Source: Actinomycetes bacterium
GTDB lineage: Bacteria; Actinomycetota; Acidimicrobiia; Acidimicrobiales; RAAP-2
Assembly (NCBI GenBank): GCA_021806045.1
Contig: JAJZDI010000019.1
Coordinates: forward strand, 5,262 to 64,777
DNA length: 59,516 nucleotides
Direction: 5' to 3'
Shown piece by piece: positions 7,809 to 30,777 of this stretch. The notes under the pieces were generated by a model. It saw nothing but the letters and a program-made list of their open reading frames with translations, was not told where the DNA came from and did not search any database. The translations under genes were made by a program, and so were the position numbers. Positions within the stretch are counted from its first letter, which is position 1. Each line of letters begins with the position of its first letter.

Positions 7809-7840
7809 AACCCCGGACCGAGCCCGTCGGCGCTCGACGT

Positions 7841-7914
7841 CGGGGAGACCGGATTCGAACCGGCGACCTCCTGCTCCCAAAGCAGGCGCGCTAACCAAGC
7901 TGCGCCACTCCCCG
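7841..7914 (-). tRNA. tRNA-Pro (anticodon UGG)
   Basis: The 74-base minus-strand cloverleaf has acceptor CGGGGAG/CTCCCCG (7 bp), D-arm GCGC...GCGC, anticodon stem CCTGC/GCAGG around loop TTTGGGA (anticodon TGG), and T-arm GCCGG-TTCGAAT-CCGGT. CCA is not encoded. All standard stems pair. It lies between the minus-strand uncharacterised gene and the divergent Ppx/GppA gene. Confidence 0.96.
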
Positions 7915-28568: not shown

Positions 28569-28588
28569 CCCGCCGGCTGGCCGGCGGG
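28569..28588 (+). terminator. GC-rich hairpin ending rplU-rpmA
   Basis: CCCGCCGGC (28569-28577) is followed after TG by its exact complement GCCGGCGGG (28580-28588), 16 bases after the rpmA stop. There is no T-tract, as is common in GC-rich Actinobacteria. Confidence 0.6.
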
Positions 28589-28635
28589 TCGTACCGCCGG
28601 AGCATGGCGAACGACCCGTCACGGGGTGGCTTCAG

Positions 28636-28863
28636 ACCCTTGCATCGGACTGCCCGAGGGCGCACCATTGAATTGAGGGAAACCCGGAATCACCGGAGGA
28701 ACCTCGAGGGAGGTGAGTCCACCGGGCTGGTGATTGCAACGGAGGACAGCCAGACGGTCCCCACCGGGTCGCAGCTGTGAAGCTGCTTCGGTAGAGCCGG
28801 GTCGAGGACCGTCGAACCCAGCAGGACGAGCCCGGCGCCGTCGTTACCGATGAGGCGCCGGGC
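28636..28863 (+). ncRNA. Candidate structured noncoding RNA of unknown family
   Basis: This is the only gene-free stretch over 300 bases (28553-28931). Perfect helices are visible: TTGC 28640-28643 with 28736-28739; AATCACC 28688-28694 with 28729-28735; ACCTC 28701-28705 with 28710-28714; GACGGTCC 28753-28760 with 28806-28813; and GCAGCT 28771-28776 with 28781-28786 closing a GTGA loop. CCCGG at 28683-28687 could pair with CCGGG at 28722-28726, forming a pseudoknot. A 10-bp hairpin at 28830-28863 would end the transcript. The GNRA-type loop favours the plus strand. It does not match the RNase P, tmRNA, SRP, 6S, T-box, cobalamin or c-di-GMP motifs I know. It could be a leader of the phosphatase gene or an independent RNA. 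Confidence 0.5.
28830..28863 (+). terminator. Terminator-like hairpin at the 3' end of the candidate RNA
   Basis: GCCCGGCGCC (28830-28839) pairs perfectly with GGCGCCGGGC (28854-28863) around a 14-base loop, followed by GTTCTG. Ten consecutive GC pairs make a strong stop for a transcript coming from 28.63 kb, or an attenuator for the downstream phosphatase. Confidence 0.5.
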
Positions 28864-28931
28864 GTTCTGCCGTCAGGGGCCGATCGGCGCAGGCGTAGGC
28901 TGGCCGGTGTGCGCGACCCGGGGGAGGGGCG

Positions 28932-29738
28932 ATGCACCTCACCCCGGGAGGACCGATGGCCATCGACGATGCCGCCGCTGCACCGCTGCGTGCGGCGGTG
29001 CCCCGCCAGGTGACCCTGGAGGGCTGCGTCAACTTCCGGGAGGTCGCCGGCTACGAGGTGACGGGCGGGGGCCGGCTCCGGTCAGGGCGCCTCTTCCGGT
29101 CCGACGGCCTGGGGCGCTTGACGCCAGGCGACATGGGCGTGGTCCGGGCCCTGGGCCTGCGGACCGTGATCGACCTCCGGACCGAGGGCGAGGCCACCGA
29201 GGGCGGGACGTTCCCCGTGGCCGAGGTCCCGGTCGAGCTCCACTCGTTCCCGCTGATGGACGTGTTGCCGGCCGCAGACGAGCTGCCGTCGTGGGGGGAT
29301 CCCGGCTTCGTGGCCGGGCGCTACCTGGCCATGGTGGAGGCGGGCGGGGACATGCTGGGTGACGTGGTGCGGGTGCTGGCCGGGGAGGGAGCAACCCCGG
29401 CGGTCGTCCACTGCAGTGCGGGTAAGGACCGGACAGGTGTGGTCGTGGCCGTGGTCCTGGGGATGGTCGGGGTTCCCAGTGAGGTCATCGTCGCCGACTA
29501 CGCCCGCTCGGCCAGCGCCATGCCCTCGCTGCTGGAGCGGCTGATGGCCGATCACCCCGAGGCGTCCGGCGCCGTCGCCGCCTACGCCCCGGCCATCCTC
29601 CATGCCGAGCCGGACACCATGCGGACCTTCGTCACGCTGGTCGAGCGACGGTTCGGCGGATGGGCGGGCCTGACCCGGAAGCTCGGTGTCGACGATGCGG
29701 TGGACGCACTCAGCCAGGCGTTGGTGGACCGCGCCTGA
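28932..29738 (+). CDS. Tyrosine-phosphatase-like protein (MptpB/Y_phosphatase3 type)
   Basis: A 268-residue protein with the cysteine phosphatase P-loop HCSAGKDRTG (Cys about residue 161) and the N-terminal NFREVAGYEV and GRLFRSDGLGRL motifs shared by the MptpB-type tyrosine/lipid phosphatases. The DLRTEGEA segment supplies a conserved Asp-Leu-Arg. The substrate may be phosphotyrosine or a phosphoinositide. Both ATG 28932 and ATG 28956 have a G-rich ribosome site four bases upstream, so the first eight residues are uncertain. It lies directly after the candidate structured RNA and converges on the glycine-rich surface gene. Confidence 0.87.
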   Translation: MHLTPGGPMAIDDAAAAPLRAAVPRQVTLEGCVNFREVAGYEVTGGGRLRSGRLFRSDGLGRLTPGDMGVVRALGLRTVIDLRTEGEATEGGTFPVAEVPVELHSFPLMDVLPAADELPSWGDPGFVAGRYLAMVEAGGDMLGDVVRVLAGEGATPAVVHCSAGKDRTGVVVAVVLGMVGVPSEVIVADYARSASAMPSLLERLMADHPEASGAVAAYAPAILHAEPDTMRTFVTLVERRFGGWAGLTRKLGVDDAVDALSQALVDRA

Positions 29739-29775: not shown

Positions 29776-30777
29776 TCAGTTCAGGCGCTGGAAGCGACGG
29801 CGGAACACGCTGACCCCGGCGAAGCCCACACCGGCCAGGACGGCGAGACCCAGGCCGCCCACGGCACCCGTGGGCAGGCTCACCGGCTGCACGGTGAAGA
29901 CGAGAGAGCTGGCCGAGCCGTCTCCCGGGTGCGACGACGAGGTCGCCACGCCGGTTGCGCCGGCGACGACCCACGTGGAGCCGCCACCGCCACCGCCACC
30001 GCCACCGCAGACGCCGGCATCGCCACCACCGGCGCCACCGGTGAACCCGCCGCCGCCGCCGCCGCTACCCGAGGCGAGGAAGTCCGACGCCCCGGCTCCG
30101 CCGTTGGCGGGAGCGCTGCTGCCGTTGACCCCGCCCGAGCCGCCGGACGCGCCCACCAGCCAGCCGGCGCCCTTGGATCCGTTCGATCCGCTTGGCCCGT
30201 TGCCCCCACCGGCCGACGCCGACGAGCCGGCACCCCCGGCGCCGCCGGAACCACCTGGCAGGAGCGGGCACGTCGACTCACCGCCGCCGCCACCACCGCC
30301 GGCCACGACCAGGATGTCCGAGGTCGGGGTGGCCGGCGTGCACGACGCCCCGGCGCACAGCGCGCTGGCTGCGCCGCCGCCACCGCCGCCGGAACCTCCG
30401 TTCCCGCCGGCAGCGAACCCGTGCCCGCCCGAGCCGCTACCGGTTCCGCTCCCGGCGCAGCCGATGACGAGCGTGAGGGGCTCGCCCGACGTCACCGGGA
30501 TGGTGGCGGTCACCGTGCCCCCCGTGCCCCCATCGCCCGGGGAGGCCGAGAGGAGGGTGCCGTGCCCGCTGGCGCCCGATCCGCCGGCGATCGTCAGGGT
30601 GACGGACGTGGCGTCAGGAGGAGCGGTGAGGGCGTGTGCCGTGCCACAACCGGTCGGTGCGGGCACCGTCACGTCCAGGGTGGCGGCGCCGGCAGGGGTC
30701 GCCGGCAGCACGACGACGGCCGCGCCGACGGCCAGCGCCAAGGCGGCGCCGGGCACCAACAGGTGGGACTTGCGCAT
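29776..30777 (-). CDS. Glycine-rich surface protein with signal peptide and C-terminal membrane anchor
   Basis: A 333-residue protein starting at ATG 30777, with GGGGAGAG upstream. Residues 1-32 are a signal peptide (KSHLLVPGAALALAVGAAVVV...AGAA). A short beta-like domain follows (TLDVTVPAPTGCGTA...VTLTIAGGSG), then about 200 residues with long Gly/Ser runs and scattered Cys. It ends in a hydrophobic helix (about 305-325) and FRRRFQRLN, a membrane anchor with positive stop-transfer. No LPXTG is seen. Similar glycine-rich proteins are thought to be surface or adhesive components; the function here is unknown. Confidence 0.8.
   Translation of the reverse strand: MRKSHLLVPGAALALAVGAAVVVLPATPAGAATLDVTVPAPTGCGTAHALTAPPDATSVTLTIAGGSGASGHGTLLSASPGDGGTGGTVTATIPVTSGEPLTLVIGCAGSGTGSGSGGHGFAAGGNGGSGGGGGGAASALCAGASCTPATPTSDILVVAGGGGGGGESTCPLLPGGSGGAGGAGSSASAGGGNGPSGSNGSKGAGWLVGASGGSGGVNGSSAPANGGAGASDFLASGSGGGGGGFTGGAGGGDAGVCGGGGGGGGGSTWVVAGATGVATSSSHPGDGSASSLVFTVQPVSLPTGAVGGLGLAVLAGVGFAGVSVFRRRFQRLN

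Follow-up and report, generated by a model that had tools for sequence, protein, structure and literature searches.

Comparison with a sister genome argues that the interval between rpmA and a downstream Y_phosphatase3 gene holds a real structured RNA, apparently new and narrowly distributed. Positions given here refer to the window, the whole 59,516-nucleotide stretch of DNA that was analysed, which comes from a 3.1 Mb assembly that is 97% complete. The initial annotation had proposed a structured RNA of no recognised family at this site, made either as a separate transcript or as a regulatory leader. The first proposal is borne out by base pairs kept through compensatory changes and by the lack of a fitting Rfam match at E ≤ 10 in either genome; the second is supported as an interpretation, with both of its alternatives still standing. 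Our own preference, held tentatively, is for a separate non-coding RNA some 195 nt long, with a promoter of its own and so far seen in one genus, which most likely acts in free form as a small RNA; we infer its promoter, transcript ends, free action and partner.

The upstream neighbour is rpmA (ribosomal protein L27; 28301–28552, plus strand; PF01016, E = 4.6e-35), behind which stands a hairpin at 28569–28577/28580–28588. The downstream neighbour, also on the plus strand, is the Y_phosphatase3 gene (PF13350, E = 1.5e-50), which occupies 28932–29738 or begins at 28956 after the sequence GGGAGGA, so that the gap between the two genes is 379 or 403 bases depending on the phosphatase start codon. 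The order rpmA, RNA, phosphatase gene is found in the source genome and in G001, the one further member of the genus that was compared, and the element is thus present at the same site in two of two genus genomes. Across the whole window, ARAGORN and Rfam at gathering score returned tRNA-Pro (7840–7914) as their sole match.

The core aligns between the source genome and G001 without a gap, and 125 of its 157 columns are identical. The fourfold-degenerate sites of the neighbouring genes are identical at 36 of 59 positions for rplU, 24 of 51 for rpmA and 59 of 130 for the phosphatase gene. In the flanks, agreement is 31 of 80 alignment columns between the rpmA stop and 28621, and 45 of 91 between 28881 and the start of the phosphatase gene. 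The low identity of the flanks therefore delimits a kept block running from about 28622–28640 to about 28880, bounded approximately by the candidate −35 box and by the last bases of the 3′ hairpin. Conservation above both the fourfold sites and the flanks shows, as judged from this pair of genomes, that the core sequence is under selection.

That a coding frame might explain this conservation had been foreseen, and it is not supported by the codon phases, a six-frame test or Pfam. The 32 differences in the core are distributed 15/10/7 over the codon phases. We consider a conserved small protein on the minus strand, in place of an RNA, to be a very improbable reading of the locus. Its frame is open across the core in both genomes and shows fewer amino-acid changes than expected (minus frame 1, 14 in 52 codons versus 19.2; P = 0.02, uncorrected for six frames), but this significance is lost after correction for six frames. 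Plus frame 1, which has the same codon phase as minus frame 1, gives an uncorrected P of 0.03 and contains two stops in both genomes. Furthermore, the stop of the minus-strand frame in the source genome (28632–28634) is not shared, an indel after 28842 disrupts the frame upstream, the frame has no Pfam match, and the structure test described below is stronger for the plus strand than for the minus strand.

The minimum free energy (MFE) fold of the source core has 47 base pairs, of which 46 are kept in G001, four of them by double changes, and one is broken. When the same substitutions were placed at random (n = 5000), a mean of 7.4 pairs were broken, none of the 5000 controls had one or fewer broken pairs, and 0.6% reached four double changes. 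The double changes are at 28755/28811, 28773/28784, 28774/28783 and 28776/28781, and RNAalifold likewise reports four. The absence of covariation in a homologous region, which was to count against the element, was thus not what the relative gave. A weaker result comes from the reverse test, in which 8 of the 52 pairs of the fold derived from G001 are broken in the source genome (P = 0.045; for double changes, P = 0.012). On the minus strand the corresponding tests find 7 of 48 pairs broken (P = 0.20) and 6 of 50 (P = 0.04). A whole-transcript fold of 69 pairs has six broken in G001, five of these in the 3′ hairpin. This comparison comprises two sequences and offers little covariation to build on; within those bounds it shows pairing conserved on the plus strand between the two genomes, and the segment 28673–28870 of that strand looks like a real structured RNA. 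The arms P1 and P2 and the GGG/CCC closure described below hardly vary, and these parts are therefore supported by energy and conservation and not by covariation.

Folding energies were compared with those of dinucleotide-preserving shuffles. The z scores are −4.32 for 28590–28880 and −3.93 for 28669–28868, with none of 200 shuffles as good in either case, and about −5.4 for 28673–28872 (100 shuffles), whereas 194 stretches of 200 nt sampled from both strands of the window, with 40 shuffles each, go no lower than −3.67. G001 reaches −5.03 over 200 nt, and its core −3.75. The 3′ hairpin accounts for much of this signal: the core without it (28673–28819) has z scores of −2.74 on the plus strand and −2.62 on the minus strand, and 28601–28800 gives −1.72 and −1.90, respectively. 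Energy alone therefore lends the core weak support. The case for a structured RNA rests on the comparative test and is not altered by the modest z score of the core (−2.7). It is very improbable, in our view, that the element is a functionless chance structure in GC-rich DNA which happens to be alike in two close relatives. The small number of genomes and the moderate fold of the core without its 3′ hairpin would fit such a reading, but the conservation exceeds that of fourfold sites and flanks, and no control among the 5000 keeps the pairs equally well.

In the predicted fold, all on the plus strand, the 5′ arm P1 (28673–28707) pairs 28673–28678 with 28702–28707 and, beyond an internal loop, carries an inner hairpin at 28683–28687/28693–28698. 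A single U-G to C-G change at 28674/28706 distinguishes P1 in G001, the remaining pairs being unaltered. A junction (28708–28819) follows, closed by GGG/CCC at 28708–28710/28817–28819; this closure is found in the full-transcript MFE folds of both genomes and its letters are invariant. The first arm of the junction, P2 (28712–28751), is placed by conservation and MFE and consists of 28712–28714/28749–28751, 28717–28720/28744–28747 and 28722–28724/28740–28742. In G001 it shows a U-G to U-A change at 28714/28749 and the loss of one apical pair at 28726/28737; between 28702 and 28727 the two genomes do not differ at all. The second arm, P3 (28753–28813), has 8 bp at 28753–28760/28806–28813, including the double change at 28755/28811, and an inner CCGG/CCGG helix at 28764–28767/28797–28800. 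Inside it lies the 6 bp hairpin P4 (28771–28776/28781–28786) with the other three double changes. The unpaired TTCGGTA between P4 and the inner part of P3 (28787–28793) is invariant in both genomes. The 3′ hairpin (28821–28870) is composed of 28821–28827/28864–28870 and a 10-bp stem at 28830–28839/28854–28863; in G001 the 10-bp stem is identical and five other pairs are lost.

Several of these features had been anticipated from the source letters. The 8-bp, 6-bp and 10-bp helices and the hairpin next to rpmA were all found in the places where they had been named. The 8-bp helix with its 6-bp hairpin stands, but the GNRA-type loop of the latter is not conserved, being GUGA here and GUAG in G001, and is not supported as a feature. 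Similarly, the stem of the proposed terminator-like hairpin is present, but it lacks a U-run, and a consensus scan finds no terminator under the intrinsic criterion of a GC hairpin with a U-run. The suggested CCCGG/CCGGG pseudoknot finds no support, as its letters are invariant and compete with the hairpin at 28683–28698. Nor is a likeness to the P element of group I introns supported: the segment in question, ATTGAGGG, reads ATCGAGGG in G001 and forms part of helix P1, and no group I covariance-model match is listed at E up to 10.

The comparison with known families used the 4227 families of Rfam 15, with the gathering score of each family as the criterion, and the element of both genomes was also searched at E up to 10. 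As the initial annotation had advised, all models were run, and in both genomes the only matches lie far below gathering score; no family fits the 161-nt core of either the source genome or G001 at E up to 10. The gntR-DTE RNA (RF02989) is the one family with a weak match at the equivalent place in both genomes. This match differs in being on the minus strand and in scoring 15.2 and 15.8 bits against a gathering score of 63.6 bits (E = 1.1 and 0.81), and was read as chance. Neither the bacterial RNase P RNA (RF00010) nor the ydaO c-di-AMP riboswitch model is listed on the element at E up to 10, in the latter case for either genome; the one RNase P match of the genome is on another contig and scores 220.6 bits, above the cutoff.

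We think it improbable that the element is a known class diverged too far for Rfam, whether a ydaO-like aptamer, 6S RNA, a shrunken RNase P or a remnant of group I. By eye, GGAGGAACC...GGTGAGTCC...CGAACCC resembles the ydaO motif, GGAGGAACC/GGUGARUCC/CGAACCC. Local similarity to an approximate ydaO aptamer sequence is near chance (P = 0.10 for the source genome and 0.04 for G001), and the two alignments land on different parts of the two elements, which counts against this reading. On paper the role of 6S RNA is unfilled, as RF00013 matched none of five family genomes (G000, G001, G003, G012 and G016) at E ≤ 1, the control matching in 6 of 14 known genomes. The fold of 6S RNA is a rod, however, and the arms of the element form no such rod. 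At E ≤ 10 the 161-nt core matches none of these classes, be it from the source genome or from G001, and an ordinary RNase P RNA is present elsewhere in the genome. The element bears a closer likeness to the orphan structured RNAs of comparative genomics: one survey describes 104 structured RNA motifs, several of them confined to one lineage, that likewise have a conserved fold with compensatory changes (PMC2864571). Compared with the motifs as presented there, the element has no fitting Rfam 15 model, two members and scant covariation. No published description of it was found among the titles and abstract openings listed in the literature searches.

Across all of the searches made there is no convincing third copy. 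A DNA search of 61 relatives gave matches at E ≤ 1 in 60, the best beyond G000 and G001 reaching 2.5e-4 over about 32 bases; such short matches were discarded as brief pieces. Among 397 genomes of the order, five matched at E ≤ 0.001, and the four besides G000 (L039–L042) were set aside, being alike over 30–42 bases only. A covariance model, R1, was built from the two sequences, and on it the true copies score 183–192 bits. Of 150 family genomes, 19 match R1 at E ≤ 1. The weak matches among them (best E = 7e-6, 37 bits versus 183–192) align poorly and were rejected after some of them had been inspected: L075–L079 and L081 were read with their flanks, alongside both true copies, and the eight top-ranked matches were read as alignments. 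Since such poorly aligned matches reach E values of 7e-6, the E values of the two-sequence model are evidently too optimistic in GC-rich DNA. We note that L075, L076 and L077, from genus g10 of the same family, have a common stretch that matches R1 at 26–37 bits with poor pairing; it is taken to be no homologue. Of 27 weak matches that were examined, most sit in long open frames, the exceptions being L089 (none) and L086 (84 codons), but the true copy in G001 also lies in an open frame, of 589 codons, and open frames therefore do not discriminate. With a laxer filter, 39 relatives yielded L104 (26.1 bits, overlapping a YggT-like frame), L078 (23.7 bits) and L105 (22.2 bits), which were rejected as weak.

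More distantly, R1 found G000 alone at E ≤ 0.0005 or 0.001 in evenly drawn, overlapping samples of the order (397 genomes), the class (395) and the phylum (396), searched with strict filters under which a homologue of low similarity could be missed. An exact pattern taken from the P2 arm occurs in eight stretches among 84,980 genomes; L101, which is G001, has the element and the other seven are without it. Viral contigs gave 0, 0 and 1 stretch with the pattern, the single one without a model match. At E up to 10, short pieces were matched in 19 phage records, none spanning 80% of the query, and in 50 plasmid records, with none at 80% query coverage among the matches listed.

The rpmA locus was read for 30 of 57 matches, two from the element's own genus and 28 from other genera. 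Following rpmA in the latter are the phosphatase gene (nine loci), obg close by (four) or further off (two), or neither within the locus (13). In the nine rpmA–phosphatase loci at most 157 bases separate the two alignments, which is too short for the element, and the best R1 score over the 28 loci is 13.7 bits. The adjoining of the two genes without room between them means that these genera carry the phosphatase gene without the element. The element looks like a gain at the rpmA–phosphatase site in one genus, going by these loci, although it may instead have been lost elsewhere or have diverged past recognition. A complex structured RNA of very narrow known range occupies a site that is empty in several related genera.

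The free small RNA that we tentatively favour would be transcribed from a weak σ70-type promoter just upstream. The candidate −35 box, TTGCAT (28640–28645; TTGCAC in G001), and −10 box, CACCAT (28663–28668; CACACT in G001), each match three of six consensus letters; they are aligned in both genomes with a 17-nt spacer, and the promoter scan reports neither, both being weak with respect to the consensus. The RNA would start at about 28673–28676, at the foot of P1. It would fold into P1 followed by the junction of two arms, P2 and P3 with P4, closed by GGG/CCC; the stable hairpin at 28821–28870 would end it and set or protect its 3′ end, and the invariant letters of P2 and the junction may bind a protein or another RNA. 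We favour this reading because the kept block ends at the hairpin, because TAGGCT (28896–28901; TAGGAT in G001), a possible −10 box of a separate phosphatase promoter aligned in both genomes, lies after it, and because the phosphatase gene occurs elsewhere without the element. If it is correct, the genus would have a regulator of its own, in a lineage whose five tested genomes gave no RF00013-type 6S RNA. Counted against it are the leader-like position of the element, upstream of the phosphatase gene and in the matching direction in both genomes; the weak promoter boxes, the hairpin without a U-run and the availability of two sequences only; and the moderate fold of the core (z = −2.74), with its complement nearly equal (−2.62) and 8 of 52 pairs of the G001 fold broken.

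The main rival reading, a serious one though less probable in our view, is that the element serves the phosphatase gene as a 5′ leader of the attenuator or riboswitch type, in which the core would sense, the 3′ hairpin would terminate and CCGGGCY/RGCCCGG would antiterminate. In the alternative helix, CCGGGCT at 28722–28728 would pair with its complement AGCCCGG at 28829–28835 (CCGGGCY and RGCCCGG over the two genomes) and free the polymerase into the gene. The order of boxes, core, hairpin and phosphatase gene, identical in both genomes, is consistent with this, as is the presence in both of the 7-bp candidate helix, in which one double change turns U-A into C-G. Of 1000 column shuffles, 1.1% yield a helix of at least 7 bp with a double change, a figure to be read with the candidate having been picked post hoc. 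Its pairs have a probability of at least 0.97 in the source RNA cut at 28835–28845, but at most 0.01 in G001. Long invariant junction letters are typical of aptamers, which also counts for a leader. On the other hand, the 3′ hairpin has no U-run, the 61 or 85 nt between it and the gene are poorly conserved and include the possible separate −10 box, and the phosphatase gene is present without the element in other genera. Predicted Rho-independent terminators are reported to be scarce in Actinobacteria (PMC2965389), which argues against a leader as well.

It is unlikely, on a model extended from the leader, that the core represents a new riboswitch class of one uncultured actinobacterial genus, in which P2 and the junction would sense a metabolite and the antiterminator would switch the Y_phosphatase3 gene. 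The sensor would then have arisen or been acquired where several related genera have a plain rpmA–phosphatase junction. In that case the known riboswitches would gain a rare class, and PF13350 phosphatases a signal that controls one of them.

Two observations concern the DNA beyond the phosphatase gene. Between this gene and obg lies a gene on the minus strand (29776–30777) for a glycine-rich protein without a Pfam match, which has a signal-peptide-like start and, near its end, a hydrophobic stretch and RRR. In seven of the nine rpmA–phosphatase loci from other genera, obg starts about 50–130 bases from the phosphatase alignment.
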